This document shows positions 16,843-43,977 of a stretch of 60,000 nt of DNA, one piece after another. The notes beneath the pieces were generated by a model. The model did no database searches and was not told the DNA's origin. It was given only the letters and a program-made list of their open reading frames with translations. The position numbers were made by a program, and so were the translations under genes. The stretch is from Bolinopsis microptera (Eukaryota > Ctenophora > Tentaculata > Lobata > Bolinopsidae): positions 13,122,169 to 13,182,168 of the forward strand of contig NC_087072.1 of NCBI RefSeq assembly GCF_026151205.1, in the 5' to 3' direction. Each line of letters begins with the position of its first letter. The first letter of the stretch is position 1.

Positions 16843-17300
16843 TGCTGAGCAGTTTAAACATTAGATAATTCACTTCTCATATGTTTTGAAGAGATCAGAT
16901 AATTTTAGTGTAAATAAAGAACTGTAAGACATCAAATTCTAAGCCATGATTCTGAGTATTATTGCTCGCTTTCGAGAGCTTCTTAAATTGTTTGATATGA
17001 ATTTTACCTTTCATGAATATTGAAACCTAGATGAATTTGATGTTTTACTGTTTCAGAGTATATACAAATTATGATATACCTAAGAGTTTGGGTGCCATTG
17101 ATGAGTAATTCAAATATCTATACCCTATAGGAAAGTGTACTATTTTATTAAACTTTAATGCATCAGAAAGCAGTTAAGATATCGAATGACCATAGTTTAT
17201 ATACTTATACAGATAATTAATAATGTAATAAAATCCGAAATAGATTCAATGAATTATTATCAAAGCATTTAAAAACAATAAAAAAATTCATGTAAATATG
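16843..17300. repeat. Upstream segment of the BTB repeat unit (copy A)
   Basis: DNA just upstream of copy A recurs upstream of B (20098-20560), C (26420-27001, interrupted) and D (38286-38520, partial). Shared words include GAATTTGATGTTTTACTGTTTCAG, a CCTAAGA..GGGTGCCATTGATGAG stretch and TTATACAGATAATTAATAATG. The duplicated unit therefore includes the 5' flank, and presumably the promoter. Confidence 0.85.
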
Positions 17301-20097: not shown

Positions 20098-20591
20098 TGC
20101 TGAGCAGTTTAAACATTAGATAATTCACTTCTCATATGTTTTGAAGAGATCGGACAATATTAGTGTAAATAAAGAACTGTAAGACATCAAATTGTAAGCC
20201 ATGATTCTCAGTATTATTGCTCGCTTTCGAGAGCTACATAAATTGTTTAATATGAATTTTACCTTTCATGAATATTGAAACCTATATGAATTTGGCCAGC
20301 GAATTTGATGTTTTACTGTTTCAGAGTATATAACAATTGTGATATACCTAAGATTTTGGGTGCCATTGATGAGTAATTCAATTATCTATAGGAAAGTGTA
20401 TTATTTTATCAAACTTTAATGCATCAGAAAGCAGTTAAGATTTAAGATATCGAATGATCACATGCACAGTTTATATACTTATACAGATAATTAATAATGT
20501 CCGAAGTATAATTTCAAGCACTGTATTCAATGAATCAAAACAGCCCAAATTTAGAATATTTTAAACAGAATATACAGAAATTACCATTGAA

Positions 20592-23500: not shown

Positions 23501-23805
23501 TGCTGAGCAGTTCAAACATTAGATAACTTATAACCCGTCTAACTTTTAATACAATGTAAAACATCAAATTCTGAACTTGTTTATTTTAGGCTGGCTTATT
23601 CGATTTAATTAAGGTGACATTTGACTCATAATAACGCTTTATTTGTTAACCGCTTAGGCCGTATAAGCGACCAAAGTCCCAAAAATGGGGTTGATACTGG
23701 CCAACAAAGCGGTGCAGATAATTATAGCTTAGTGGGGGGGGGTGTCATGTCCGTCTATGTCCGCCTATGTCCTGTCCTTTTTGGATTCTATGAGACAACG
23801 GACGT

Positions 23806-23985
23806 GTTTTTTGGGACATTGGCGGACACGGACGGACATTGGCGGACTCGGACGGACATTGGCGGACTCGGACGGACATTGCCGGACTCGGACGGACATT
23901 GGCGGACCCGGACGGACATTGGCGGACTTGGATGGACATTGGTGGACATTAGCAGACATTGGTGGACATTAGCGGACAAACATTT
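23806..23985. repeat. 20-bp tandem array (ACGGACATTGGCGGACTCGG)
   Basis: About seven units, decaying rightwards into GACATTGGTGGACATTAGC repeats. The unit is two 10-bp half-units sharing the GGACA word with the element's terminal repeats. Confidence 0.9.
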
Positions 23986-23992
23986 TGAGGAC

Positions 23993-26010
23993 TGAAGAGT
24001 ACTGAATAGTACTGAAGAGTACTGAGGAGGATGGCTGAGGAGGATGGCTGAGGAGGATGGCTGAGGAGGAGAACTGAGGAGGATGACTGAGGAGGAGGAG
24101 GACTGAGGAGGAGGACTGAGGAGGACTGAGAAGGAGGAGGACTGAGAAGGATGGCTGAGGAGGATGGCTGAGGAGGATGACTGAGAGGGAGGAGGAGCAG
24201 GAAGAGGAGGAAGAGGACTGAGGAGGAGGACTGAGGAGGAGAAGGACTGAGGAGGAGAAGGAGGACCCAGGAGGAGGAGGACTGGGGAGGAGGACCCAGG
24301 AAAAGGCCCCAGGAGGAGGAGGAGGACTGGGGAGGAGGAGAACTGTTGAGGACTGATGAGGAGGACTGAGGACGAGGAGGAGGAGTAGGAGGAGGACTGA
24401 GGAGGGGAGGAGGAAGAGGACTGGGGAGGATCAGGAAGACCCAGGAGGACCCAGGAGGAGGAGGAGGAGGAGGACCCAGGAGGAGGAGGAGGACTGAGGA
24501 GGACTGAGGAGGAGGACTGACGATGACTGAGAAGGAGGAGGACTGAGGAGGACTGAGGAGGATGGCTGGGGAGGATGGCTGAGGAGGATGACTGAGGAGG
24601 ATGACTGAGAGGGAGGAGGAGGAGGACTCAGGAGGAGGACTCAGAAGGAAGAGGAGGAGGACTCAGGAGGAGGACTTAGGAGAAATGAGAAGGAGGACTG
24701 AGGAGAACTGAGGAGGAGGAGGAGGAGGACTGAATAGGAGGAGGAGAAGGAGGGGGACTGGGAGAGGACTGGGTAGGAGGACTGATGAGAAGGATGAGGA
24801 GGAGGACCCAGGAGGAGGAGGACTCAGGAGGAGGACTCAGAAGGAAGAGGAGAAGGACTCAGGAGGAGGACTTAGGAGAAATGAGAAGGAGGACTGAGGA
24901 GAACTGAGGAGAACTGAGGAGGAGGAGGAGGAGGAGGACTGAATAGGAGGAGGAGAAGGAGGGGGACTGGGAGAGGACTGGGGAGGATCAGGAAGACCCA
25001 GGAGGACCCAGGAGGAGGAGGAGGAGGAGGACCCAGGAGGAGGAGGAGGACTGAGGAGGACTGAGGAGGAGGACTGACGATGACTGAGAAGGAGGAGGAC
25101 TGAGGAGGACTGAGGAGGATGGCTGGGGAGGATGGCTGAGGAGAAGGAGGAGCAGGAAGAGGAGGAAGAGGACTGAGGAGGAGGAGGAGAAGGACTGAGG
25201 AGGAGAAGGAGGACCCAGGAGGAGGAGGACTGGGGAGGAGGACCCAGGAAAAGGCCCCAGGAGGAGGAGGACTGGGGAGGAGGAGAACTGTTGAGGACTG
25301 ATGAGGAGGACTGAGGACGAGGAGGAGGAGTAGGAGGAGGACTGAGGAGGGGAGGAGGAAGAGGACTGGGGAGGATCAGGAAGACCCAGGAGGACCCAGG
25401 AGGAGGAGGAGGAGGAGGACCCAGGAGGAGGAGGAGGACTGAGGAGGACTGAGGAGGAGGACTGACGATGACTGAGAAGGATGAGGACTGAGGAGGACTG
25501 AGGAGGATGGCTGGGGAGGATGGCTGAGGAGGATGACTGAGGAGGATGACTGAGAGGGAGGAGGAGGAGGACTCAGGAGGAGGACTCAGAAGGAAGAGGA
25601 GGAGGACTCAGGAGGAGGACTTAGGAGAAATGAGAAGGAGGACTGAGGAGAACTGAGGAGGAGGAGGAGGAGGAGGACTGAATAGGAGGAGGAGAAGGAG
25701 GGGGACTGGGAGAGGACTGGGGAGGAGGACTGATGAGAAGGATGAGGAGGAGGAGGAGGACTCAGGAGAAGGATGAGGAGGAGGACTGAGGACTGAGGAG
25801 GAAGAGGAGGAGGATGAAGAGGAGGAGGAGGACCCAGGAGGAGGACCCAGGAGGAGGACTCAGGAGGAGGAGGAGGACTGGGGAGGAGGAGGACTGATGA
25901 GGAGGACTGAGGACGAGGAGGAGGAGTAGGAGGAGGACTGAGGAGGGGAGGAGGAAGAGAACTGAGGAAGATCAGGAAGACCCAGGGGTAGGAGGAGGAA
26001 GAGTAGGAGG
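23993..26010. repeat. 2-kb GGA-rich, almost pure purine tract with higher-order repeats
   Basis: The plus strand is built from GAGGAG, GGACTGA, GGACCCA and GGATGGCT words with very few pyrimidines. Larger blocks are duplicated; for example, the block around 24370-24590 recurs near 24980-25135 and 25310-25530. The tract can form triplex or G-rich structures. ORFs across it (poly-Ser/Pro on the complementary strand) are artefacts. Confidence 0.95.
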
Positions 26011-26177
26011 AGGAAGCATCTAAAAGTTATTTCCATTTTTGTCCGTTTTTGTCCATTTTTGTCCGTTTTTGTCCGCTCTATTTTTGTCTGTTTTGAAAAT
26101 ATAGGGTACCGAACGGACAAAAAACATGATCCCCCTATAACAGCAAAAATTGAACATTTTATTTAGCAATTTAGGTG

Positions 26178-26272
26178 TCCATTAATGTCCGCCTATGTCC
26201 GCCTATGTCCGTCTATGTCCGTCTATGTCCGCCTATGTCCGCCTATGTCCGTCTATGTCCGCCTATGTCCTG
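26178..26272. repeat. 10-bp tandem array at the right end of element 1
   Basis: About nine units of TATGTCCGCC / TATGTCCGTC in phase, followed by the unique spacer and the inverted copy of the unit. Part of the element end. Confidence 0.92.
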
Positions 26273-28256
26273 TCCTTTTTGGATTCTATGAGACAAGCGG
26301 ACATAGACGGACGTGACACCCCCCCCCCCCCCCCCCCCCCCTTAGTAGTCCCATTTCTAATCAAAATTCAAATTTATAAATTGTAGATCGAACTTAAATA
26401 TTTAAACTTATATTATTAGATGAATTTGGCCAGCGAATTTGATGTTTTACTGTTTCAGAGTATTATATTGGGGGGATCATACATGGTCAGAATCGTACGT
26501 GAAGGAAACTGCTCATTTCCCAGCAAAACAGTTAGTACATGGTACTAAGGTGTTCAACCCCAAAAAAACCCAATTACCCTCAAATTTCAATTTTGGAAAT
26601 GGGTTTTGAGGTTTCTTTAAGTTTTTTTTTGGGTTTTTTGTAATTTTTTAAATTTGGTTTGTAACTTTTTATCTAATTCGACTACATTGAAAACAAAACC
26701 CCTACTAAATAGTGGGTATAATTTGCCCATTTCCAATGTTTAATGAGCGGTTTAAAGCAATTTATGGGTGAGTGTAATCATGATACAATTATGATATACC
26801 TAAGATTTTGGGTGCCATTGATGAGTAATTCAAATATCTTTAGGAAAGTGTATTATTTTATCAAACTTTATTGCATCAGAAAGCAGTTAAGATATAGAAT
26901 GACCTCAGTTTATATACTTCTACAGATAATTAATAATGTCCGAAGTATAATTTCAAACACTGTATTCAATGAATCAAAACAGCCCAAATTTAGAATATTT
27001 ATTAAAGGACCAGTTAACTGAAAAAAAAGTTATCCTCATATTTTGACAGATTGTGACAAATAGCAAACTAAGCAACGAGTCGAAATTCCTAAATCTCTAA
27101 CTGCTCTCTAACGCGTGTAATTAGCGTTTGTATTATTTTGGCGATGACGTCATAAAGTCCCTTGCGCGCACAGAGTAGCTCGTGAGACTGTATTTTACAG
27201 GTAGAAAATGGACATAATACAATGTTTCTCCCCCAAATAACTCGAAAAGTAAGTATTTTAGGGTACATGTTGCTTCATAAGTTGTATATAAACATGGCAA
27301 TTCTGCACAATTTGCACTCATTCAAAAATCTGTAGGGCCTTCATAGCCCAAGTAACGAGATGCCCATATTTTAGCATGATTTCTGGAACCGAAAATCAGT
27401 TTTTCGCCAATAACTGAAAAAAAAGACTCTATCACGATCCTATCGAAAATGGGCTCAGCACCACGCCCAAAATGGTTTTTGGCAAATTTCTCGAAAAGTA
27501 AGGATTTTAGGCCATGTGTTGCTCAGTAACTCCTATATAAACATGCATATGCCGCTTGGTCTAAGCCTATTTAGAAGTCTCTACGACCTTCAGAAGCAAG
27601 GGGTCGGTTACGTTATTGGGTCAATATGGGCGTGGCCCTCTTGGGTTTTCTCCACGGTCAAAAAATGTCTCCAAACGAAAATCGTTTATTCATACCTTCA
27701 GGAAGGTCTGTGCAAAGTTTCGTGAGTATTTGAACATTTGCAGGTTCATTTCCATAAATGTCCATAAATGACTGGACTACACAACTTTAGAGAAACTCAT
27801 AAGTCATTCATCTCAAATTAAGCTGTTAGTGTCCATGATCAACCTGTGGCGACAATGTTTAACGTGAAATGTAAAAATCAGGAGTAATATAAAAAGTGTA
27901 TTTTTAGATTAAAGTGCTAGGCGCTAGCTCATAGTTTTAGAATTGTATAGATTAACGTTGGTCGTTTAGCCATTTAACAATCGATCGTGCCGTAATATAT
28001 GGCCAGAGAATAATAGGGTCTTGGAAATTCTATAGTTTTTCAGTGGGTCGATTGACTGAACACGTTTGCACTTGGTATTTAAACTTACCAGTAGTTTATT
28101 TATGTTATGTACCGATGATAATGCAATTAGGATAACAACTAGGTAAGCCGTAAGTCTAATTCAAAACACACCGCACACCGTACACACCAATCAGTATTAC
28201 TATTTGGTAGACCGGGTATTTTGGCGGGAATTCTGTTCCCACGGCACTGTTCTGAT

Positions 28257-28445
28257 AATAATAATAATAAGTAGGAATTTATACATCGCTTTATAGCCAT
28301 AAAGAACTCAAAACCCAAAGATTCAGTTCAAACCATCTAAAGCGACTCATGAGTAACATGTACATAAGAACTTATTTTTATGAAGTATGGATTTTATGAG
28401 AAAGGTAATACATGATACTTATACAAATACGTTTTCAAAGAGATG
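28257..28445 (-). mobile_element. Displaced 3' UTR and tail of the LINE
   Basis: On the minus strand this reads as AT-rich sequence ending in a (TTA)n tail at 28257-28270, as expected for a LINE 3' end. Part of it (TGTACATAAGAACTTA near 28357-28375) recurs at 37566-37600. It is separated from the coding part by the segment 28475-30343. Confidence 0.5.
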
Positions 28446-28446
28446 A

Positions 28447-30373
28447 CAGCAATAGCAGCAAATCTGGGGAAACTTGGTGGACATTGACTTTTTTCACATA
28501 ATTTGAGTATGTTGACTTCAACATTATGTTGCAGCTCATTGTGGTTAATCTCAATGTTGGAGTGATGTTTTTCTGGTGCACAAAACACTACAGTATGGTT
28601 ATGTTGAATAATTGTGGTTAATGGGTCATCTATGTGGCCACTATGGTGGTTAAAATACCAGTTTTAGGGTTAACCACCATTTCTAGATATGATATTATGA
28701 ACTGAGTAGTCATTATATTGAGATCATATCATGGTGCAACTATCACAAAAGTTTTCAAACCTCATGGGGGGCATTTTGTGGTCCTAATGGTGGTTAAATT
28801 TAAGATGAACGGTGAGCTATAAATATTGCTCCGATTATAGATGTATAGTGGTGGTTGTTCATTTGTGCATGGATGATAATTTTTTATCACAAATGTGCAA
28901 TTTAATAGTATGGTTGATTAGAGGTGGTTAATATTCGTAAAAAGTGCTAAAAAGATGGTTAAAATGTCAAAATTTGTTGTTAACCACCAATCAAAACATT
29001 ATTAATGATTTTAGTCAACATTTTCTGGTCAACAAAGGACATTTGAAGGGTCTTGATAAAATTTTTCAAGAAATGTTGTCATAAAAGTGGTTAAAAGGGC
29101 TATATTACTTGCTAGGCTGTTGAACAAGGCATCTATTAAAGTGAAAATTAACCACAATATGAACTTCAGATAATGGTTTGCTATCCAAATGAGTGTATAT
29201 TTGTTTGCAAATCCATAATTGACCCCAAGTTCATGCATTATGATCAATGTGCAGCTATGGTGGTTAAAATGTCTCGAAAATACCCTATATTTGCACTAAT
29301 TAACCATTTTTAGAGCACATATTAGCTTTGTAAAGCTATAGCTGGCCATGCTACATTATCTAGATATAACTACCTGCTCATTTATATGACCAGAAACATT
29401 GCTGAGTCCTATGTTGTGTCCATCATGGTTAATAAAGGTCTAAAATTGACCAAAATCAGTGTTTTTGGTCGTTTTAACCACCATACGGCCACACATTTTG
29501 TTGCATTATCTTTAAAATCACTTATTATCCTCCAGCTATCTCTCATAATCAAATATCAAAACAAAATAAGGCACAAAAAGTTCGGAGGTTGCTGAATAAT
29601 GGTTAATTTGTGATGGCTTCTGTTGACCGAAAGTCCAAAATAAACATGTTTTAACCACATTGAGGCCACATCTAAGGTTTTATGGTATTGGGACCATAGT
29701 CAAAAGTTTTGGGCACCTGAATGGTGACCTCTGCTTTTGAAATTATGGTGATATTTCAATGCTGTGCCATACCAGGTGGTTAAGTACGCGCTAGCGCGCG
29801 CACGCGTACAAACATGGTTTTTTTGATATACCACAGTTGGTGGTTAACTGTTCTACATCAAACCTTCACTAAAAGTATTGGGCACCATAGTGGTGACATA
29901 ATATATAAAGAATTTAAGCCTAGACTAAATATGTTGGCCTACAGATGGTTAAGTACGCGCTAGCGCGCGCGCACGCGTACACTATAACATAAACAAATAA
30001 ACCACTCCACAGACCACATTTATTAATTTTTTTAATTTCCTTCTTCAACTATGTGTCAATGAACCATTTTTGTTCAATAATGACCATCAATATTAACTGT
30101 AGTACTTATATCTTCACTGTAGTAAGGGTTTGGGTGTTAGAGGTATAAAAAATGTCCACTAACAAATCAGTCATTTTTCGACTACTTAACCACCTAACTC
30201 AGCACCATAATGTTCTGAGATTTTTTTCGTTGCACTATCATGAAGCTATGACATTTTTGGACCTATGTAAATAATCAGATTACTAAAATTCATAATCTTA
30301 GATTTTTAAGGGGGGGTTAAATGCTTCAAATTGGTGTATTTCAAAGTTTCCCCAGATTTGCTGCTATTGCTGA
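28447..30373. repeat. GGTTAA-rich 1.9-kb segment with inverted 28-bp borders
   Basis: Bounded by ACAGCAATAGCAGCAAATCT at 28447 and its inverse ending near 30372, both continuing to GGGGAAACTT. The interior repeats the word GGTTAA or TTAACC dozens of times at irregular spacing. A 35-bp GC block containing TACGCGCTAGCGCGCG occurs twice (29785-29815 and 29950-29985). The right border coincides with the last codons of the LINE ORF, so the segment sits within the LINE 3' end. No coding capacity is recognised. Confidence 0.7.
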
Positions 30374-33255
30374 TGAGTTTTTAGTTTCTTTTTAAATAAG
30401 ACGATATCGGTTAGTGTTCTCAATTGATAAGGAAGCTTATTCCAAACAGAGGGTCCGCAGTAGCTGAAACTTCTCTCGGTTTTACTATAGTTTGAAATAG
30501 GAGAAACATTTAGGAGGAAATAGTCTTCTTCAGTTCTTAGTACACGTACAGGTTGACTTTTGATGTCAATACATTTGATGATATACTCCGGGGCTATGTT
30601 GTTAACGCATTTGAACACGGTTAGAGCAATCTTATACTCTATTCGTTGTCGTATCGGAAGAAAATGGGCTTTTTTCAGGAATGGAGTGACACTGTCCCAT
30701 TTTTTGATAGCTTTCCAACCAAACAAGAATCGAACACAGGAATTTTGTACCTTCTGGAGTTTCTTTATTAGAAGATCAGGTAAACCGTATAAGAGTCCAT
30801 TGCAGTAGTCTAGTTTTGAAAAGATCAAGCAGTGAATGAGCTGTCTTTTTAGATCATAGTTAAGCTTTGAGCCTATAACTCGAAGGTTTCTCAGATGGAT
30901 GTTGCAGCAACTGATAATTGAATTTATTTGGTCTTCAAATGTTAGGAATTGATCAAATAGGACACCTAAACTTTTCACTGTGCGGGATGCATCCACAGGG
31001 TCAGCTGCATTGTCAAGTTGTATTGAATCGACTGGACATGAAGAGTAACTGTTCTTGGTCTGTACTACAAGAGCTTCTGTTTTGTTTTGGTTCAGTTTGA
31101 GTTTATTTTGGGTCATCCAGGTCTTAATATCTTCAAAACAATTTGTTATTCTCTCTTCGATTGTTGAGAGATCTCGAAATAGTGGGTTAAACTCAATGTA
31201 CAGTTGAGTGTCATCTGCGTACATGTGGATGTTAAATCCATGTCTCTTTGCGATCTGATTGAGCTCCTTTGTGTAAAGTATAAACAGAATTGGACCTAGA
31301 ATTGAACCTTGCGGGACTCCAATTCTAAGGAAGCATCTCTTTGATCTTGATTTATCAATAGTTACTGTGAAGGATCTGTTATTAAGGTATGATGTAAACC
31401 ATTCGAGAACAGTACCTTCAAAACCAAAGTCCTTTTTTAGTTTTTTTAGGAGCAAGTGATGATTTACAGTATCAAAAGCAGCACTGAGGTCCAAAAGGAG
31501 GAGGATAACCTTACTTTTCATGTCACTGATACAAAGAAGATCATTGTAGATGGTAAGGGTCGCAGTTTCGCAGCTATGATTTGACCTATAACCACTTTGA
31601 TGCTCAGCATGAAGATTGTGATAGTCAAGATGTTTGGTCATCTGTTTCTGGACGCTCTTTTCAATGAGTTTCGAGAGGAAAGGTAAGTTACTAATCGGTC
31701 TATAGTTGTTGAAGCTATTGACATCTCCTTTATCATCTTTGATGGCTGGTCTGACAAGAGCACTCTTTAGGACTGACGGAAATTTTCCAGTGACAAGTGA
31801 GTCATTGATAATAAATGACACAATTGGTTTAACTTCATTAAAACACTGCATTAGAAGTTTTAGAGGGATGGGATCCTCTTCACATTCTTTTTTGTTAAGG
31901 TCAGAAAGAATCTTTTTGAGATCATTGTCGCTTATGGTTTCAAATTGGCTCCAGGCTTCACCTTGAAATGGTTCAGAGTGGTCAAGAAGAATGTCAGCTG
32001 CAGTATCATTGTTAATGGCAGAGTAAATCTTTTCCACTTTATCATTGAAAAACTCTTTCATCTCCTCACATAGAGTTTCAGCAGGTTTGTTATTAGGCTT
32101 CAAGTTTTTAGATATGTCCCGATCCATCAGCTGATTGACTATTTTGTAGGTATCTTTTTTATTGTCCTCACAGCTTTGCAGACGATTTTCATAGTATAGC
32201 TGTCTAGTGGTGTTTATAACTGCCTCGGCATGCTTAACAGCTTTTTTATAGTCTAATTTTGAATCTGCAGTTTTAAGTCTCCTGTTGTCACGTTCAGCTT
32301 TTCTTCGTTTCCTTCTGGCAGTTTGACATTTTGTGTCCACCCACTTGCTTTGATCAGGATTAATGCTAAAACAGATAAGGGGAGCATGTTTATCAAGAAT
32401 TCTGCGAAGTTCTTTGTTATAGAGTTCCGTGGCAGAGTTGCAGTCAATAAACTTGTTGGGGTCATTTATGTCAGATAGCAACAGATCATCCTTAAAAAGA
32501 TTTATGTCTATATCTGATATCTTTCTGCCCACCATATCTTCTTTGTTGCTTCCTTTGGGGTGAGGAAAGGCAATAGAGAAATTTACGAAGTAGTGATCTG
32601 ATGTTGTTACTGTTTTAGCTACATCTATATCTTTTATGTTCAACATATCACACGCATTGCTTCTAGTAAGAACAAGGTCTAAGATTCCACCCCCAATGTG
32701 TGTTGAACTGGAAATATGCTGGATGAGGCCATAGTTTGATATGAGATGGATAAAATTTATCGTATCAGGATCAGTGAGGTCTTCGACATGGATATTGAAG
32801 TCTCCAGCAATGATCAGTCTACCTGGAAGGTGAGTTAGACTGTCAAGATATTCATCAAATTCCCGTAAAAAGTCTGTCATTTTGGACATTTTAGCCGTAC
32901 AAGATCGATAGACACAGCAGAAACGAAGAAGGTCATTGGAACTTGACTTCAGCACACTCTCAACATGTTCAAAGGATTTATGGGTCTTTGTAGGGCGTTT
33001 ATTGAAGCTAAGATCTTTCTTAAAGGCAATAGCGACACCACCTCCTCTACCAGCTCTAGATTGGTGAACAATATTATAGCCTAGGTCTTTAATTTCCGCT
33101 ATTTTTGACGTATCTCCCTTACGTAGCCAAGTTTCTGTCAGGAAACAGGCATTGATATTGGAGTCAGACAGTTGCTCAAATACTTGTGCAGTTTTATTAC
33201 ATAGTGACCTCGTGTTAAACAGTCCGACATTTAGGTTGAGAAGCGTAGATAGAAG
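30364..33255 (-). pseudogene. LINE ORF2: endonuclease and reverse transcriptase, lacking its 5' start
   Basis: An uninterrupted frame of 963 codons. It opens inside the APE-type endonuclease (VGLFNTRSLCNK, then TETWLRKGD, AGDFNIHVEDL and TTSDHYFVNF, the Glu, Asp-Asn and SDH catalytic positions). The reverse transcriptase follows with palm motifs LLLLDLSAAFDTVNHHLL (A), GVPQGSILGPILFILYT (B) and MYADDTQLY (C, catalytic DD), then thumb and C-terminal parts (LLYGLPDLLIKKLQKVQNSCVRF). The set suits the CR1/L2/Jockey group; the exact clade is not resolved. No ATG precedes the endonuclease, so the copy is 5'-truncated, yet it has no stops, so it is young. It sits inside the TTAA-flanked element. 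Confidence 0.9.
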
Positions 33256-34026
33256 CTACTTCTACTAATGGTCCCAGAGGAACGGCCGTAAAGTAGCCAG
33301 ACTTCTTGTCTCCTGTACTGGCTGACACATGTGGATTAAAGTTAGAAATTCCGCTATGATATAAATATAATTGCTCTCGGAATTGAACAAACTCCTACTT
33401 ATCTAGATCCTTTCTAAATTCGTTAGAGTTTCATGGACTGGGGAAAAATAATCGGTACAGTCTCCCTGCTTGTGTAATTAAGCAATGAAAACAATCCAAA
33501 ATTATCACATTATATGACATAAGTTGTAATAGCAGAAACTTTCTAACCGTTATACATTCACCCGCCACTGTTCAAGAAATTATGTCACTGTTTAAAATCA
33601 TGACGTGAGCACTGTACATACAATCAGCTATTCCTTTAGTTAGGATGATAGCCAAAACTATAAGGATTTTGGAGAACTTGGGTAATAGTCATAATTCTAA
33701 AATTTGAGTGAGTTACACGTGTTTTATTGACGATGATAAACATTTGCAATGTATTACGCTATGCAAGCGCGCACTGAGGGACTTTATGACGTCACGACGC
33801 CACAGCTTATTATTGCAATAACACTTGTTACACGTACGCTAGAGAATTGGTTCTTTCGGCGATACGATTCTTTACCAGTTTGTCACAGCTGATTTAAATC
33901 TTAGCCAAATTGGAGACTACAAATTTTTCAGTTAACTGGTCCTTTAAAACAAAATATACAAAAATTACCATTGTATAAAATTAAGTGAACAATATTTTAT
34001 TACTTAAAATCATCATATTGGTGTAA

Positions 34027-37000
34027 TCAAACTACAAATAAAACAAAACGATATTTACAGCCTTGATGGATGCCAACACAAGGATGCCAATTGGTCAATC
34101 TGTCATTTCCCTTGATCAAGTTTTCAAAATTTGAATCATTGTATACTCCAAACCAAATATATCCCCAACACCAAGTTTCTCTACTAGGTATACAAGTTGG
34201 TTTACCGCACCAAGTGATAGGTAATATACCCCATTTACCATCTTTCCATCTCTCCAAAGCAAAATGCAATTTAGGTACTTCATTCAGCACTTCCTTGGAT
34301 GAAGCAGCCCATCTCATAGAAGAGGAGTCAGGATTGCTACCTTTCATGGCAGTAATCGAGAGGATGTAACTAATATTAACAAAGTCAGGATTATCAATCC
34401 AGAACTTAAGGTCGCTATCTTTTTTGAAAATCTCCTTGACGAACTCCTCTGCCGAACTATACTCTCTACTGGAAGCATGAAATGTGTTACCTCTTCTTGT
34501 AACAAGTCTCTTGCAGTTCTTCAGAAGGTTTAAAAACTTAGCACATTTACGATTATTGGTAACAAATAGTCTATCGACATATTCGTAATCAACACTTTTC
34601 CATCCATTCCGTTCTTTGATTCCAACCAATTTTTCTAAAGTTGATTCGTTAACAGTATCGTCATCGCATTGCCGTAGTCTTAACCAAATACCATCAATAA
34701 GTTTGTACAGATTATTAACCATTTGGCTGGTACTCAATATCTCAATTATATATCCCAAAGTGTACCTAGGACCTACATAAGGACTGAACGAAGCCAAGGC
34801 AACTGTTGAGAAAGGTCCCAGATGTGTTGCCTGAGGTTTCATTTTGTTGGCTGAGGCCGAGGAAAAGTCGCTATTCCCCGGTAAAACCGAGGCCGAGGAC
34901 TCGGTCGATCCTTGATGATTTAGAGTAATATTTTGTTCGAGTTTCCCCAAAAGAAGTTTGTAATCCTCTTTTTTAATATTATCAACACTTTCCAGCACAG
35001 AGAAGAGCTTCCTGTGAATTTCAGGTTTCTTTTTATAACAGAAGCTCAAATTCAAATTCTTGAAAAGGAGTCGGCTATTCTCATCTAGGTTCACCGTATC
35101 TTTCTTCTTTAAATGAGCAATCAGTATCTCAACCAGAACATGGACATCTGTCTTTACAATATCTATACAAGCATCAATCTGTATTGAAGTGGAAGTAGAT
35201 AAATCAGACAGGTACTGGTTTATGAAGTTATCTCGTATTATAACTGAGATAATGTTCATTTTCTTTACCACCAAGTTCAGGAAATCTTTTTTCTTCAGAG
35301 CAGATAGCAGGTACACAGCCTCCTCTACAGCAAACAACATATCAGGGTAGCTACTCTCACTGTCTAGTTTATCCAGATAGGATACAAAATACTTCTCACA
35401 TCTGGCAACAAGCCAGCTCACATTGAACACAACACTCATTTTGTTCACATCTCTGAAGTTGCCCAGGTTCAAAGCCTCCACTTCTCCCGTGTAGGAAGCC
35501 TCAATAAAACAGTCCACTGCCTCCCTGCTAAAGTCCTCAGCTTCAAGTGACGTCAGGTGAAGGTCTGTGGTCAGGTCATCAATAACAGGGCTGTTCAGGG
35601 ACATTATGATAGAGTTAGCTTTGATCTGCAGTCCTTGTTGGAGATTGAAGGTGAGGGGGGGGGGGTCAACCTCATTTTACCTCATTTTACCTCATCCCAA
35701 TTTTGCCTTTTTTGGCTGGCCTCATGAGGTAAAATGAGGTAAATTTCGGCAAAAATTTTTAACAGGTAAAATTCTCTAAATCGTCAATTTAGTCACGAAG
35801 GAGTATGGAAGGAGTTCTAAATGTGTGCTCCTCTAATATAAACAGTAGGAAATGGTTAACTTTAGTCGAGGTCTCAGGTCTCTACAACGTCAGAAAGTTC
35901 CTGCAGGAATTTGCGCATTGCGCTTGAAGCGCAAGATTCACAGCGCCAAAAGCGAAGGTCGTAGAGACATGAGACCTTGACTAAAGTTAACCATTTCATA
36001 CCATTGCTATAAGAGTACGCCACTTTCAGAGTCCTAAACACACTCCCATATCTCTTAATCGTCAATTGTATGAATTTTACCTGTTAAAATATATCATCTT
36101 TTACTAATATCAATTTATTTTAACACTGTTAGTTTTAAAAATGAAAATAATACTTCACACCAAACTAACACACAATATGAGAATATAAAGAGGAAGGTTT
36201 TCTTGGAGACCTGGACCATCAAAATAGTGTACATTGCTGCTGTCATTGTCAAGACTCCAGAATAAGAGGGTCTAGTTGTGGGATTACCTATGCTGGATAA
36301 CAGATATATGATAAGTGGTAACATCCTACAAAAGAATGTTAGCTTACTAAGGAATTTTCCTCTTACCGAATTATACAAGAAGTTAACTAAGTTCCTCCTA
36401 GTCCAAAGCATTATATTGTTTCAGAGGGAATGAGTGATTTAAAAAGATGAGGCCAAAGAGTTATTAGTTGTGTCACTAAGTTGTTAAGAAGGCATTTGTA
36501 CTCTGTAATTTCTAAGCTAATTTTTTTCGATATTTATAGCTATTTACTGATCTTGTTTTGACGTATCAGCAAGAGATCACTGGACCTCGTTAGTTGTTAG
36601 TCATGTTATGCTGATCCAGTTAGTGACAAGCTATGAAGTAATCATTCAACCTCATTTAATACTGATCCTATCAATGACGAGCTATGAAGTAATCAGTGGA
36701 TCTCGTCAATGCTCATCCTGTCCGGACTGTCAGTGACGAGTTATGAAGAAATAAATGAAGACCTCATTAATTCCTTGTTCCAAGAAGATATTCCTCTGGT
36801 AACAACCCCTTCTGGCCTGCTTCTGAACATAATATGAAGATTCGAAAACCTAGTCTACCTAAATTTGAACTTGCTGACTGCATTGGAAAATGGAGAACAA
36901 TCGAGAAATGATAATCAGTGCGAGGATATACTGATAGGTAATCAAAGTTGAATTCGGAATCCAAGGAAAACCTTCCTTTTTTATATTATCATATTGTGCG

Positions 37001-38285
37001 TTAGTTTGGTGTGAAGTAATATGTTCTTTTTTAAAACTAACAGTGTTTTAAACTAAATTGATATCAGTTAAAGATGATATATTTTAACAGGTAAAATTCA
37101 TATAATTGACGATTAAGAGCTGTAGGAGTGTGTTCAGGACTCTGAAAGTGGCGTACTCTTATAGCAATGGTATGAAATGGTTAACTTTAGTCAAGGTCTC
37201 ATGTCTCTACGACCTTCGCTTTTGGCGCTGTGAATCTTGCGCTTCAACTTTCTGACATTGTAGAGACCTGAGACCTCGACTAAAGTTAACCATTTCCTAC
37301 TGTTTATATTAGAGGAGCACACATTTAGAACTCCTTCCAAACTCCTTCGTGACTAAATTGACGATTTAGATAATTTTACCTGTTAAAAATTGGTGAAAAA
37401 TATGGGCGTGGCCCAAGTCAGTATTATACGAAACCGTAGACACAAAAATTGTTGGGTTGTTCCTGATCCTATAAAGCAACTAATTAGAGGTGATATCTAA
37501 TTATTTGAACGAAAAGTGGTTTTGTGAACCGCCCTTTATTCTACAGCGAATCATGAACATTGAACATGTACATAAGAACTTAGAATTGTATGAAGTATGA
37601 GTTTATATGAGTAATTTGTTATGAAATGACCTTTCACTATGAATTTTCGACTAAATTCATGTAGAAATCCAATCCAATTCCATGCACAACTGTTGTTTAC
37701 ATTTGGTCTAGTTAGACACAATTTGTTTCAGAGTGACTCGATAATCGCAATATCAAACTAAGATATTATTTAAATGGTCCATGTCATGCAATGCGGAAAT
37801 ATCCCCATAAATTGGCAACTGCCAAAGTGACAGTAAAGTTATTGCTAATTCCTTTACAAAACTTAGCAAGTGCTATCAACAATTTCCTAATGGATCATGG
37901 AAATTGAAATGTTCAATTTTCTTTTCATAAATAATAATTATAATGCGAAGTTTTATTTACCCCAAGTTTGGAGAGTAAGTAGGTTAAACTGGGAATGCCC
38001 CTTCCACATCACCCCTAATAAACCATTAAATATCATGGGAGACCATGCACAGCCTCGAATTATAGTATAATGACTTCGAATAAACCTTTTTTGTCTCTAA
38101 AAAAAGGCTTAGAAAACTAGATTTATTTACCTCATTTTACCTCATTTTACCTCATCCCAATTTTGCCTTTTTTGGCTGGCCTCATGAGGTAAAATGAGGT
38201 TGACCCCCCCCGTGAGGTTACCGTGACTTGGTGCTCCAATGTGGTGTCTGCCAAAATCTGCTGGTACACAAACTTTGGGGGCCAT
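34027..38285 (-). pseudogene. BTB-domain gene, tandem copy D, split by a 2.55-kb insertion
   Basis: The first 25 codons (38285-38212, MAPKVCVPADFGRHHIG... to NLT) are separated from the rest (35656-34027, starting LTFNLQQGLQ) by element 2. Removing the element and one 6-bp GTGAGG copy restores the same reading as copies A-C. The remaining 3' part has no stops and ends CKYRFVLFVV, so insertion is recent. An internal ATG at 35604 could start a 525-residue protein without the first BTB strand. Linker type is like copy B (QGSTESSASVLP), with the exonised miniature element partly degraded. Splicing out of the element is not supported: there is no GT-AG at its borders. Confidence 0.88.
35657..38211. 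mobile_element. G/C-capped element 2 with 10-bp repeat ends, inside BTB-D exon
   Basis: Left end G9 then TCAACCTCATTTTACCTCAT; right end the inverse (TAAAATGAGGTTGA) then C8. Target duplication GTGAGG (35651-35656, 38212-38217); copies A-C show the empty site. Each end carries the same 80-bp module in direct orientation: three 10-bp units (ACCTCATTTT), spacer CCCAATTTTGCCTTTTTTGG..., then inverted units. The interior has 330-bp inverted arms (about 35755-36095 and 37057-37395), each with its own internal palindrome around GGTTAACTTTAGTC. Between them lies about 1 kb with no recognised gene; a 98-codon hydrophobic ORF (36115-36411, minus) is probably chance. Confidence 0.88.
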
Positions 38286-39348
38286 TGCTGAGCAGTTTAA
38301 ACATTAGATAACTTATAACCCGTCTAACTTTTAATACAATTTAAAACATCAAATCCTGAACTTATTTATTTTAGGCTGGCTTATTTGATTGAATTAAGGT
38401 GACATTTGACCTTTCTTGAATATTAAAACCTAGATGAATTTGGTCAGCGAATTTGATGTTTTACTGTTTCAGAGCATAATATTATAAGAATTATAAGATA
38501 CCTAAGATTCTGAATGATGTCATCTTATCATTGAAAAGGCAAGGTTAAAAGAAATGTCCACAATGTACAGGAGATAATTATATTGTACAATGTACATGAC
38601 TATGAGTGGGCTGACATCTGAGTCTATACATGTGAAATGAAATTTGTTTGGTTAAGCTATAAAAGGCTTAAATGTTTACATACACCATTTGTATTTCACA
38701 TTAAATCTGTACGTGATAGATTTTGGAGGAAACCGAAAGAATACAATTTTTCACTGGAACAGGAAATATTCAAAATCTAATTTCGTGTTTCACGCTGTAT
38801 TTTACATTGTAGGAGGTTCTGGACCAGGGTTCAGGTTTCAAATAGAAAATATAATAAAGGTGAACACTGTACAGCATGCAATTCCAAGAGATAACCTGAA
38901 CTTGGATTACAGTTCTAGGCTTACAACGAGTAAAAAGAACTGTGAAATGAACTGTCAGATTTGTAATATAAGAGTTGGAAATATAAATGGAGAACAGTTC
39001 TTAGTTCAGTGCATTACACGCATGCTTGGTTACTGGTTACTAGGTTACTAGCTGGTTACTAGGTTACACGCATGAACTCATACATTTATTTTGTGCAATG
39101 AGTAATCAATCCAATAAAACAAACTACACTATTTTGGGAATTGTTTAATCATCAACGAAATTTATAAATAGCTCTACATATTGAATAAATTATAAAATCT
39201 TTTGTCATAAAATGTAAAAAAGGATTACAAATTCACGTTCCAGCGCGATTAGTTAAATTATTAACTAACAATTAAATCATACCTTAGTGGTATCTAGTTC
39301 CTTCTTATAGTCACCAGATCAATTAACTAAGAATAACCCTCATAACGA
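38286..39348. other. Upstream flank of BTB-D and spacer to aladin
   Basis: The first 230 bp are the BTB-unit upstream segment. The rest is AT-rich. An ORF at 38689-39051 (plus, 120 codons) has no recognisable domain, signal or splice context and I do not call it a gene. Confidence 0.5.
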
Positions 39349-39734
39349 AACAGGTAAATCTAGGCGTACCATATGGGAGTAGTCACTTCAAACAGGTAAA
39401 TCTAGGCGTACCATATGGGAGTAGTCACTTCAAACAGGTAAATCTAGGCGTACCAGATGGGAGTAGTCACTTCAAACAGGTAAATCTAGGCGTACCAGAT
39501 GGGAGTAGTCACTTCAAACAGGTAAATCTAGGTGTACCATATGGGAGTTGTCACTTCAAACATGTAAATCTAGGCGTACCAGAGGGGAGTAGTCACTTCA
39601 AACAGGTAAATCTAGGCGTACCAGATGGGAGTTGTCACTTCAAACAGGTAAATCTAGGCGTACCAGATGGGAGTAGTCACTTCAAACAGGTAAATCTAGG
39701 TGTACCAGATGGGAGTAGTCACTTCAAACAGGTG
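39349..39734. repeat. 42-bp tandem repeat next to the aladin stop codon
   Basis: About nine near-identical units (ACAGGTAAATCTAGGCGTAC, then CATATGGGAGTAGTCACTTC AA) ending 16 bp before the aladin stop codon on the minus-strand 3' side. They would lie in the aladin 3' UTR. Confidence 0.95.
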
Positions 39735-39749
39735 AAGTCATGTCATTGC

Positions 39750-42700
39750 TCAAGAGGGCGTGGTCACGTCAGGAACAAATCTAACATCTCCATTTTCACA
39801 GCAAATACACAGTACCCCTCCCTGGAATGGCGAAGTGTTTAAATATATAAACCGTCTCTGAAACCAGACATTGAGCTGTCTTATCAATTGTGGATAGTTT
39901 AGATAAGAAGCCCTTATCCCGACTTTAGTGTGCTCTGCTATAATTAGATACAAATACGAGGTTTTTATCATCAACATCTAACAAACAAATATTGTAAATT
40001 ATTTTCTAACGTTAGATTTATCAGCTTTTACAATAAATGTTTAACTTAATTTCATCTTCCTAGCGGCTAACTGAATATTTATCAAATATTCATACTTTCA
40101 AAATCAAAATTAGCGGGCCAGCGGCTTGTTCTTTGGACTGATTCCAAAAAATTAATTTAATTACATGTGAATATATAATAAGGCACAATGAATACCTCGA
40201 CAAACAGACGTGATCCAGTCATGTTCTAGCTCGGTCAGGCAAGTTTATATATTATGTTTAGAAAGATAACCTTAAGATATCAGAGATTTCTTGGCACTAG
40301 CACGTTTCCGCTAGCTTACAACCAACCTGTTTGTTATTGCGTTGATAAAGTACACAGGTCGGATTAAGTGACTCTCCTATCACCTCGGACTCAAACACGG
40401 CCGTAGGTCGCAGAGTTATGCCGAATGTGAACACTTTAGATATCCCTGTAGTTTCGTCACGTGCGAGGAGGGCTAACTTTGTTCCTGTATCGTTCATACT
40501 CATATCTTCTGTTATCCAGTTCTCATCCTGGTAATAGATATCATGTTGCTTCAAAAGTCTTATTGAAATGCGGATAATGCTGTTTTAGGCGCTCTAAACT
40601 AACAATAATCTCCCCGCAATTTCTGGGATAAAACAGATGTACTACTGATGATGACGAGACAGGTGGCAGTATAAAAGCGCTATGCTAAATAGTATGTATG
40701 TACATTGTACATGGTCGCATATTATCTAACACTACCGTCTGGACCAATGCCAACATTTATAATGTTAAGAATTATCGACTTTAGAAAGTGTTTAAAATAA
40801 CATCTTGCTTGACTAAAATAGCAAAATGTAATACATAAAACATCCGTCTGTTTCAACCGTTCTTAAAGTATAAAACATCTCACCTCATTATGTGACAAAG
40901 TCTTGTTTAAGTCTATTAATATTTCAGTTTCAGAAGCGATCTTGCTGTAAACTTCTCTGGGGTTGAATATCTCCAAAGTAAGAACTAGACTGGATCCTGC
41001 CATGGAGAAGAAGAGATGAGATGCAGTGGGGGACCAAGCAGCACACGTTACCGGGGACTGGAGTCGTGTGTACGAATCTTTACCCTCTGTTATTCCTCTC
41101 AGGATATGGAACCTGGTGTTGATTTCATTATACTACTGGACATTGTAAGCTCAGTAAACAGCCCTGAGTTGAAAACTCTCAGCGAAGAATTTGATAGTCC
41201 AGCACCATGACCATTCCCATTCCACACACTTACATATTTCTCATGTTTCATATTCAGTTACTTTTCACTGGTTATACTAACCACTGGAATATGTATATGC
41301 GGGGGGTATGCAACGACCATTAATGACCATTAATGACCATTAATGACCATTAATGACCATTAATGACCATTAATGACAATGTCAGTTTTGTCAAAATTTC
41401 ATCTACTGACATTAATGGTCATGTTTTTTCCGGCACTTCTTAGAGCGAAAAGGACGGACGCCTGCATCACTTAGACCCTACCTAGTTAACTAACTACAAG
41501 TATATGTTATTATTTTACATTTACAATTAGAGATTCGAAAGAGAAAACTTAGAATAGAATCTTCCGTGGTTAGGCAGACCTTCCAGAATATCACTTGAGT
41601 GGATTCCAGAGTGAGTTAGGGATTACATTTATTAAGTTCGAATGTAATGAAGAACAAATTTTGCGGCCACGGGATTTAAACCAGATAACAGTTGGTGACT
41701 TATAGTTATCAATAATAATAATTCAAAGGGCAATTTAGGAGTATCAGATCGTATCAATAGTAAAATAACAATCAATAATAAAATAATAATAACACGGGTA
41801 TTAAAATTAAATACTTCGTTCCCGTTCTTATATCATATCAAGATTTATATTTTAGCCAAATCATTATGCTAGTCGATTATATAGTAATTACACAGTAGAT
41901 GAACTTATTCAACTTTAGCACTTCATGAAATACATCGTCATCAGTCTGAATCGGACAACAAAAAAGCTGATCTTTTTCTAGGATTAGATAGAACAATTCG
42001 TTTACAGTTCAATACTCTGCCTTTGGCAGTTTAAAGTTTTGACCCAAAATCGAGCACTGTCATCATGATAGGGACAAATTGATGCGGCAGGAATTCGTCT
42101 AGATCTGCAGTTGCCCTTTTTTGAAGCAGAGACACTCATTGATAAGATGGTACCGAGGCAACGAAGGGGACGTTTAGAATTTTTTGGAACGAAGGCCAAG
42201 GTAGCACTTAATGAGTCGCCCTTTCGAATTGTTCGACGTTGACAGGGCTTAGAAGAATTTTTGCAGCCCGGTTGGTATGGCACAGAACCCTCGAAACAGC
42301 CGCGCCGGTACCAAAAAATTTCGATCTCCGACTTTTATTTCCAAATATCGTCTTACGATGGCATAGAAGGTACTGTGAGGAGGTATTGAAAATCCAAATT
42401 ATCAAAAGCAATCAACACAAATAAAGGAAATCAATGCAATTCAAATCCACGCAAACTGCAAACAAGCATGTATACTTAGTCAACTGCAAACAAGCATTTA
42501 TACTAAGTCAACTGTAAACAAGCTTTTATACTAAGTCAACTGTAAACAAGCATTTATACTAAGTCAAATGCAAACAAGCAAACAGACAAGACAAGTTACC
42601 AACGTATAACAGAATGGTGCTTGGCACTCATTCCGAAACCGAGGTCCGAGCCTCTATTAAGCGAATATTAATTCGTTTTCTCAAACGAGACTCTGGCAAT

Positions 42701-43977
42701 CGATGTAGGGGGCTGTGAGAAACTTTATAGAAGTGATACAAAGTGATCATAATTGTAAATTTCTTGGACATGTTGCTTCCAAGATAGTTCAGAATTTCAA
42801 TTATTTAATGACCATTAATGACCATTAATGACCATTAATGACCATTAATGACCATTAATGACCATTAATGACCATTAATGACAATGTCAGTTTTGACAAA
42901 ATTCCATCTACTGACATTAATGGTCGTTGCATCCCCCCCCGTATATGCTTAACAACTATTTAAGAATCATTTAAAAATAGTATATCCCACCTTTGTCTCT
43001 CAGCCAGAAGAGAAAAGCAATACTCTGAAGACATAAGAACAAAACCAGGATGCGCAACAGATCTGATCCAAGAAGGGGAATCACCTGAGACGCAGTCTAA
43101 CAACAGTAAACTAGAAGTGGTGGTGACAAGACATTGTCTACCATCAGGGGTGTAGGAGAGAGAGGTGACAGGGTGACTGGTGCCATGCAGGGTGGTACGG
43201 GACGGCATGTTGGACCCTTTTTGGGATATCACCTGCAAATATAGGGACACACATGATACATAGTGCTATCAATGTTTGGTAAAATCAAATAATTACCAAT
43301 GCAACAATTTTTATTTCCTGAGTATTATTTAAGCTGTAGTTGATATTATAAAGTAAGAATAAGACCAATAAAACAGTACCTCCCACACAAAAACACCACT
43401 AGAACTTCCAACAGACAATGATTTTAGTGAGTTGGGTTGCCAAGCTAGACACGTTATACCCCTCTGATGCTGATGCCTCAGAACAATTGGTTTGGATGAG
43501 GTTAAGATGAAAACTTGGACCACTCCATCTGACATACCAAATGCTATCTGATCACTGGAGGATGGGTGCCATGCTGCACACACTATTGGACCTGGTTTCT
43601 CTATCCGTTCTGTCCTGAACAGTTATGGGAATTATTAGAGTATTGATAGCCTGTAAATTACTGACCGCTGGATCAATGTTAAAAATTGACTTGACGATTT
43701 ACAACTATCAATTCTCTTCATCCGAAAAGTTTCTGCATACTGCATAGTCATTCATTCTAGCTTCAGACGTCAGAGCTTAGTTTACAAAATTAAGGAATTC
43801 GGACCATGAGTACTTACTTGGTTCCAAAAATAGAAGGGTCTATAATTATTTGACGAACTCTGTTAACAATTGTCCCAAACCAATGAGCATCTTCGTCAGG
43901 CTTCACGAAATAATCTTCAGAAGAGTGAGATACCACATGACTCTTTAATGTCAATGCAGGATAGACTGACATACCCT
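39750..43977 (-). CDS. AAAS: Aladin (AAAS), nuclear-pore WD-repeat protein, C-terminal exons
   Basis: Exons about 43977-43818, 43614-43380, 43232-42991, 41112-40884, 40527-40327 (start could be 40548) and 39857-39750 join in phase to a TGA. WD-type blades are readable: VCAAWHPSSSDQIAFGMSDGVVQVF, GITCLAWQPNSLKSLSVGSSSGVFVWEV, HPVTSLSYTPDGRQCLVTTTSSLLLLD and TCAAWSPTASHLFFSMAGSSLVLTL. They are followed by MSMNDTGTKLALLARDE and the end blade FQGGVLCICCENGDVRFVP. This order and the closing 'GALLS-GW-TG-I--IP'-like blade are those of aladin, which is anchored at the nuclear pore by NDC1. The N-terminal exons (about 100-150 residues) are upstream of 43977 and were not found in the TE-rich DNA to 46 kb. 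Two large introns are enlarged by repeats, including element 3. Confidence 0.85.
41301..42940. mobile_element. G/C-capped element 3 with 10-bp repeat ends, in an aladin intron
   Basis: Left end G6 then TATGCAACGACCATTAATGA; right end inverse (CATTAATGGTCGTTGCAT) then C8. Target duplication GTATATGC, 8 bp (41293-41300, 42941-42948). Both ends carry, in direct orientation, six to seven 10-bp units (TAATGACCAT), the spacer TGACAATGTCAGTTTTG...CATCTACTGACA and an inverted unit. About 1.35 kb of interior includes a 28-bp tandem array (42450-42590) and a minus-strand ORF (42002-42283) of unknown nature. Confidence 0.87.
42450..42590. repeat. 28-30-bp tandem array inside element 3
   Basis: Four to five copies of CAAACAAGCATTTATACTAA followed by GTCAACTG, with small differences between units. 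Confidence 0.9.

Follow-up and report, generated by a model that had tools for sequence, protein, structure and literature searches.

Transposons of the P superfamily as a rule leave 8-bp target-site duplications (TSDs), and the Drosophila Foldback element (FB) has a 10-bp end repeat, a 9-bp TSD and a Mutator-like transposase. The ends of FB resemble those described here in being composites of tandem short repeats (available sections of PMC3169594 and PMC3573991), but are inverted, in contrast to the direct module of our elements E1, E2 and E3. Galileo, a P element whose ends contain internal repeats, is described in the available sections of PMC3573991 with a 7-bp TSD, inverted terminal repeats (TIRs) of ~0.3–1.2 kb and ~210-bp tandem repeats, which were proposed to provide extra transposase sites within the ends. 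It shares with E1–E3 end-dominated non-autonomous copies, tandem repeats in the ends and a DxxH-type transposase, and differs in that its P transposase is recognisable and that neither G caps nor a direct-orientation module is mentioned in those sections or in the corresponding ones of PMC8230255. Tm1 of root-knot nematodes (Mutator/Foldback; PMC3169594, available sections) carries 1–9 short end repeats, their number differing between the two ends, and is similar to our families in this variability and in having a copy with a transposase-like ORF, whereas its ~14-bp repeat, TSD of 8–10 (mostly 9) bp, true inverted ends and Phantom/Mutator-like transposase set it apart. Tandem short repeats in transposon ends are thus not new in themselves, since foldback-type Galileo and Tm1 have them in combination with other transposases; capped ends with direct 10-bp modules were not recognised in any paper listed by word searches of openly licensed PMC papers.

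The three elements in the window (the whole stretch of 60,000 nucleotides analysed; Table 1) are very probably non-autonomous DNA transposons of three families, F1, F2 and F3, moved in trans by one lineage of DxxH DDE-type transposases. Their coordinates, G/C caps, 10-bp end units and TSDs, as given in a preliminary description, held on direct reading and on re-checking by script, and Tandem Repeats Finder returned a period of 10 for both ends of each element. With inverted termini and matching TSDs they have the features of class II DNA transposons with TIRs, and the tandem short repeats of their ends, able to fold back, give them a foldback-type structure (a term that denotes no clade), although the module is direct, not inverted, between the two ends. 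The TSD of E1 should be read as 5–6 bp, because the first C of its right copy is indistinguishable from the C-run. We scanned all G-runs (29) and C-runs (26) of at least 5 in the window for partners 60–8000 bp apart with a TSD of at least 6 bp or matching termini, and obtained four pairs, namely E1, E2, E3 and a G/C-rich stretch without TSD (12788–12958), so that the window holds no additional capped element with a TSD of at least 6 bp. A perfect 10-bp array at 52897–52969 is uncapped as far as its flanks were read. Other parts of the window also contain long G-runs and tandem repeats.

Table 1. Features of the three capped elements and of the empty sites for E2 (positions in the window)
Feature	Positions	Strand	Details
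E1 (family F1)	23734..26340	+	G9 cap 23734-23742, C-run 26319-26341
E1 left target duplication CTTAGT	23728..23733	.	direct reading and script
E1 right target duplication CTTAGT	26341..26346	.	first C in common with C-run
E1 left module	23743..23804	+	TATGTCCGYC units, spacer with CCTTTTTGG, inverted unit; hairpin
E1 right module, orientation as left	26175..26318	+	reading, Tandem Repeats Finder
E1 cargo, polypurine GAGGA-type minisatellite	24024..26014	+	Tandem Repeats Finder
E2 (family F2)	35657..38211	+	G9 cap 35657-35665, C8 cap 38204-38211
E2 left target duplication GTGAGG	35651..35656	.	reading and script
E2 right target duplication GTGAGG	38212..38217	.	reading and script
E2 left module	35666..35740	+	ACCTCATTTT units, spacer with CCTTTTTTGG, inverted units; hairpin
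E2 right module, orientation as left	38121..38203	+	reading and script
Nested long-inverted-repeat element in E2	35757..37391	.	TTAA-type ends by eye
Paralogous empty site for E2	16698..16861	+	158/164 identical, gapless
Paralogous empty site for E2	19953..20116	+	161/164 identical, gapless
Paralogous empty site for E2	23356..23519	+	158/164 identical, gapless
E3 (family F3)	41301..42940	+	G6 cap 41301-41306, C8 cap 42933-42940
E3 left target duplication GTATATGC	41293..41300	.	reading and script
E3 right target duplication GTATATGC	42941..42948	.	reading and script
E3 left module	41307..41420	+	GACCATTAAT unit in six exact copies, then spacer and a single inverted unit; hairpin
E3 right module, orientation as left	42805..42932	+	direct reading
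Remnant of F3 transposase-like protein, C-terminal part, in E3	42035..42354	-	E 6.5e-11

The proposal of the preliminary description that these are non-autonomous mobile elements was supported genome-wide, and they are multi-copy. End patterns of F1, F2 and F3, searched at up to three mismatches, gave 792, 74 and 94 matches, respectively, and the reversed patterns gave 0 in each case. F1 right ends numbered 402 in the genome, and among the matches listed for C1–C3 (80 left and 97 right ends) 73 of the 80 left ends were properly paired, with a partner in the wrong orientation in 3/80. The TSD was 6 bp in 3/3 copies of F1, 8 bp in 14/21 copies of F3 and, in the 13 copies of F2, 6 bp in seven, 7 bp in two, 8 bp in two and lacking in two, while mismatched end pairs, used as a control, gave a TSD of at least 5 bp in 3/1190. 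For E2, which lies in a BTB gene, three paralogous sites within the window lack the element and keep one copy of the TSD. The suggestion that the three sites are chance microsatellites with chance flanking repeats, which the preliminary description had itself raised, could appeal to the other long G-runs and tandem repeats of the window; it is refuted by the copy number with paired ends together with the empty sites, and, given also the dispersal of the families, the absence of reversed patterns and TSDs above the control, we consider it to have next to no probability. Solo modules (cf. solo LTRs) are unsupported as a common product, with one F2 solo found genome-wide at up to three mismatches. 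Most F2 copies read contain the nested long-inverted-repeat element of E2, and the polypurine minisatellite was present in 30/30 F1 loci read, of roughly 400 F1 copies.

The plan of the ends recurs in all three families, with a hairpin and an array at each end of F1, F2 and F3. The direct orientation of the module at both ends, which had been described for the window, was borne out in 21/22 F3 copies, each end consisting of one or more unit arrays followed by an inverted unit; L085 has no exact match for the left inverted unit, and L087 has one internal inverted unit extra. Because the module is repeated directly, the array stands at the terminus on the left but inside the spacer hairpin on the right. 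Every capped end read has the termini G..C; as the end patterns contained 4–6 G, the lower limit of cap length was set by the search itself. The number of units per array ranges from 1 to 12, so that long arrays are not essential, and the runs measure 5 to 46. This variability, together with F3 spacers that are no better conserved than the body (96.8% vs 96.1%), may suggest that the arrays and the G/C runs are functionless slippage products of ordinary TIR transposons read by their enzyme through a terminus of ~20–25 bp. We regard this as rather unlikely, as the arrays change in exact multiples of 10 bp, one period recurs with different sequence in three families, and the hairpin-plus-array plan is kept at both ends of each. 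Furthermore, right modules of 11 F2 copies were identical to that of E2 at 776/785 bases, against about 91–95% identity in full-length F2 alignments, which are a better guide than the body value of 89.3%, depressed by cross-matches in the palindromic insert.

Transposase-like ORFs, sought in longer copies, were present in longer relatives of the elements. Evidence from predicted proteins within family members is strong for F3 and good for F1, and comes from one damaged copy for F2. All 18 genome matches to the F3-linked protein at E <= 1e-40 lay inside F3 ends at a distance of up to 4 kb, as did 23/25 at E <= 1e-20 and 26 of the full set of 103, every one of these 26 on the opposite strand; 0/103 were solely outside F3 ends, and no F2 element contained any of these C-terminal matches. 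The F3 copy L112 (2078 bp, 8-bp TSD TTTGCACA) has an open frame of 521 codons that begins just before the DxxH motif and lacks the upstream catalytic region. The N-terminal part of the protein is represented by a 360-aa ORF in L024, the sole F2 copy with a coding part, from which the right C-run and TSD are gone. Both halves are united in L113, a 747-aa paralogue known apart from its own ends, which is matched at E 1.4e-14 by P0010, a relative of the L024 ORF. A single F1 copy of 12.1 kb (C3:11553865–11565973) has N- and C-terminal transposase matches, collinear by their match coordinates, and its putative transposase gene could be a nested insertion. Among the copies read none had a complete transposase gene inside a capped element, and the open frames of F3 are partial.

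These proteins bear on the description of the three elements as unrelated in sequence, which needs softening, because E1 and E2 have spacer sequence and TSD length in common and homology unites the proteins associated with F1, F2 and F3. The occurrence of CCTTTTTGG or CCTTTTTTGG in the spacers of E1 and E2 was upheld, and both are absent from E3; at the level of families, CCTTTTT(T)GG...ATGAG is common to F1 and F2. One could ask whether three unrelated families, with enzymes of different superfamilies, acquired their caps and 10-bp end units by convergence, as the unlike end sequences of F3 and the differing TSD lengths (6 vs 8) might indicate. We find this improbable, since the F2- and F3-linked proteins correspond to separate halves of one 747-aa protein, both halves are matched within the 12.1-kb F1 copy, F1 and F2 share the above spacer motif, and hAT alone, including hAT5, hAT6 and hAT7, has TSDs of 5, 6, 7 or 8 bp (available sections of PMC12730594).

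No match to the transposase-like protein was found in Pfam-A, NCBIfam or PDB, and of 7991 candidates scored in a protein search with L113 (747-aa frame) none reached E <= 1. One affiliation considered was that E1–E3 belong to the P superfamily as a diverged branch, like Galileo, with a P/THAP9-type enzyme bearing an insertion domain and with repeat-enriched ends. L113 and the F3 protein have a DxxH motif (QDPLH and QDICH, respectively) followed by KK(I/L)xN, in a context that we take to resemble the P-type DPPHLLK. The D..D..DxxH..E spacing of L113, with residues assigned by eye, would be 136, 49 and 177, compared with 73, 36 and 192 in fly P, and its last interval is near to these 192 and to the 199 of human THAP9 (available sections of PMC8230255), although the first-to-second D spacing of 136 is far from 73 and 70. 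The likeness to the repeat-bearing ends of the P element Galileo (PMC3573991, available sections) points the same way. Against it, L113 and the F3 ORF gave no Pfam match worth naming up to E 10, although Pfam includes P-type models (PF21787–PF21789); the PDB profile search was likewise empty despite the presence of fly P transposase there, so that no P/THAP9 transposase domain was found by either route. The N-terminal finger looks BED-like, not THAP, and an AlphaFold model of P0021 with seven relatives (mean pLDDT 39.6) was too poor for use. The TSD is mostly 8 bp in F3 and mostly 6 bp in F1 and F2, compared with 8 bp in the P superfamily and 7 bp in Galileo. Placement of the elements within that superfamily is thus a tentative possibility; a P-like affiliation of the transposase is our best guess, and judged against Pfam-A, NCBIfam and PDB the putative enzyme is so far unclassified and may represent either a new superfamily or an offshoot of a known one.

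Other superfamilies share single traits with the elements. G caps are not a known trait of hAT. This superfamily resembles the transposase-like protein in a C/DxxH motif (PMC3706591, available sections), but the hAT transposase/dimerisation domain was unmatched by L113 and the F3 ORF in Pfam scans. The same scans of these ORFs gave neither a MULE/Mutator transposase domain, as expected of Mutator/MULE elements including Foldback and Tm1, nor PF18758 of Zisupton/KDZ, which are similar to F3 in having TIRs and an 8-bp TSD (PMC12730594, in part). IS3EU/GingerRoot usually has a 6-bp TSD, like F1 and F2, but its complete families end in TA..TA (PMC10045372, in part), while F1–F3 end in G..C. Dada has a TSD of mostly 6 bp, also 7 bp, and a DDE enzyme with DxxH, but according to the part of PMC3706591 available it lacks TIRs and targets small RNA genes, whereas E1–E3 have TIRs and E2 is inserted in a BTB gene. 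Coral CMITEs, described as piggyBac-related MITEs (PMC2872659, in part), were considered and dropped.

Under the reading that we prefer, of three families mobilised in trans by related enzymes, the termini are GGGGG... and ...CCCCC, with runs able to lengthen, and are adjoined by the palindromic module, in which a 10-bp-unit array is combined with a spacer and an inverted unit. The 10-bp units would most likely be helically phased, repeated binding sites of the putative transposase, perhaps on one face of the DNA as the preliminary description suggested, gained and lost by slippage, and cut-and-paste insertion by a staggered cut would produce the duplication of 6 bp in F1 and F2 or 8 bp in F3.

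Known foldback-type ends are inverted, and here one hairpin module is kept direct at both ends in three families. Having an equal 10-bp period with different repeats and related proteins, the families provide a natural test of a transposase that may read helically phased sites, as well as of the origin of 6- vs 8-bp target cuts in related enzymes, for which hAT is a precedent. The spread of the polypurine minisatellite through the genome via F1 may be a further effect. The proteins linked to F1–F3 point to a transposase family overlooked by Pfam, NCBIfam and PDB searches.

The three elements of the preliminary description, E1, E2 and E3 (families F1, F2 and F3), each with a G-run, a C-run and, in direct orientation at both ends, a module of 10-bp unit array, spacer and inverted unit, were confirmed in position and parts by sequence reading and a scripted re-check. 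The window corresponds to C1:13122169-13182168 within a 264.65-Mb genome. A scan of every G-run and C-run of length at least 5 in the window (29 and 26, respectively) gave four pairs with a target duplication (TSD) of at least 6 bp or matching termini, three of them being E1, E2 and E3; the fourth G/C pair (12788-12958) was without TSD. E2 lies within the 5' portion of a BTB coding sequence and interrupts the start of the fourth of four clustered gene copies, the Pfam BTB domain being confirmed in two of these. Joined at a single GTGAGG, the flanks of E2 align gaplessly to three window paralogues (158, 158 and 161 of 164 bases).

Features in the window
Feature	Position	Remark
BTB-domain gene copy	15190-16860	related, clustered
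BTB-domain gene copy	18679-20115	related, clustered
BTB-domain gene copy	21872-23518	related, clustered
E1	23734-26340	F1
Non-LTR retrotransposon frame	30364-33255	963 codons uninterrupted; endonuclease and reverse transcriptase domains
BTB-domain gene copy	34027-35676	related, clustered
E2	35657-38211	F2
42-bp minisatellite	39348-39733	about nine copies; one frame open as repeated peptide
E3	41301-42940	F3
Large nested inverted repeats	48187-49380 and 53308-54333	arms 96-99% complementary

Genome-wide, at up to three mismatches, the end patterns matched 792 times for F1 (both ends), 74 for F2 and 94 for F3, and the reversed patterns had no matches; F1 right ends numbered 402 at up to two mismatches. 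Contigs C1-C3 had 80 listed F1 left ends without a mismatch, of which 73 had a properly oriented partner among the listed right ends within 20 kb and 3 a wrongly oriented one; 72 of the paired spans measured 1.2 to 6.5 kb and one 12.1 kb. Twenty F2 copies were read, and those aligned at full length were about 91-95% identical to E2. A long-inverted-repeat element with TTAA-type ends, recognised by eye, is nested in E2 (35757-37391). It is common to most of the 20 copies and absent from L010 and L024; therefore, F2 seems to have amplified after its insertion.

In 21 F3 pairs, allowing for an ambiguous C adjoining the right flank, target duplications were of 8 bp in 14, 9 bp in four, 7 bp in two and absent in one; strict counting gave 8 bp in 11, 7 bp in six, 6 bp in three and none in one (locus L080, with its right end unrecognised, was excluded). 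F2 had 6 bp in 7 of 13, 7 bp in two, 8 bp in two and none in two, a count that omits 9 of 20 joined copies because their right end was not found in the stretch read. For F1, all three cases (E1 plus two that are nested in F2 loci) had 6 bp. Mismatched pairs gave a TSD-like match of at least 5 bp in 3 of 1190.

In 22 F3 copies (20 loci, L112 and E3), the ends showed arrays of 1-12 exact 10-bp units followed by an inverted unit, both ends being co-oriented; L085 has an inexact left inverted unit, L087 has one additional inverted unit, and imperfect units break up several arrays. Cap lengths in the pairs examined were 5-46 G and 4-28 C. As single-stranded DNA, each of the six window modules folded better than any of its 200 shuffled versions (z -3.1 to -7.9). 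The search pattern had no part in selecting the right modules of 11 F2 copies; these matched E2 at 776 of 785 bases. F3 spacers were not conserved above the body (96.8% vs 96.1%). One solo F2 module (109 bp, TSD TAATAT) was the sole one genome-wide at up to three mismatches. The exact 10-bp step in three families fits a helical-phase reading, in which the units would be putative binding sites; it is possible, alternatively, that the arrays are functionless slippage products. A perfect 10-bp array at 52897-52969 (ATAATAGTAT, 7.3 copies) showed no G/C caps in the surrounding sequence read, and a 10-bp period is by itself not diagnostic.

The preliminary description suggested looking for a long copy with an ORF; transposase-like ORFs, partial or broken, occur in F3 and in the F2 copy L024, with matches in an F1 copy. 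The F3 copy L088 has broken ORFs with public relatives P0014-P0021. Searching the genome with P0021 gave 103 matches, of which 26 fall on the inner side of an F3 end at a distance of up to 4 kb, every one on the opposite strand from it. These include all 18 matches with E ≤ 1e-40 and 23 of the 25 with E ≤ 1e-20. Not one of the 103 lay solely in the 4 kb outside F3 ends or within an F2 element. Among the frames matched, six were uninterrupted over 521 codons, one over 560 codons, and one of 521 contained a stop. The F3 copy L112 (2078 bp, TSD TTTGCACA) has a 521-codon frame that starts near DxxH and is thus without the upstream catalytic part; E3 retains a remnant of the C-terminal part (42035-42354, E 6.5e-11). 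A second, more distant cluster of relatives, at C7:13465985, C1:5404729, C9:15128780 and elsewhere, has about 43-48% identity to P0021, mostly over query 97-223, and several frames near 344 codons; it lies away from F3 ends and is perhaps another family of the transposase lineage.

L024 (3.8 kb; right cap and TSD gone) has a 360-aa ORF, 94% identical over 129 aa to the protein P0010, which matches six places in the genome: L024, the L113 gene, C11:905240, C11:768651, C11:16937706 and C3:11556572. Three of these places show collinear N- and C-terminal matches inside about 2 kb. C3:11556572, with a C-terminal match at C3:11555116 from the P0021 search, falls within the 12.1-kb F1 copy, the two being 1004 bp apart where the protein predicts about 750 bp. 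The joining protein, given by a 747-aa frame of L113, shows similarity to P0010 (E 1.4e-14) and, in its C-terminal region, to the F3 ORF (36%, 95/267, E 4e-47); the L024 finger matches L113 directly more weakly (E 1.3e-4). By eye, L113 has a putative finger (C-x2-C...H-x5-H, about residues 15-42) and putative catalytic residues D282, D418, DxxH at 467 and E644. Searches of Pfam, NCBIfam and PDB gave no informative match. DxxH loosely links the enzyme to hAT, Kolobok, P, MuDR and Dada (PMC3706591); against P transposase, as described in PMC8230255, the spacing after DxxH is P-like, whereas the first two D residues are spaced differently. The closest published end designs are those of Galileo and Tm1. 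Because DxxH is loosely shared, D spacing is mixed and Galileo and Tm1 are nearest, we class E1, E2 and E3 among the TIR DNA transposons, with a variant end plan and an unassigned transposase lineage.

F1 copies contain a polypurine GAGGA-type minisatellite of varying length (24024-26014 in E1; L039-L068), and polypurine/polypyrimidine makes up 30-51% of the inner 1.5 kb in all 30 F1 loci read vs 0-10% in 20 F2 copies. F1 may be a transposon that spreads satellite-like DNA.
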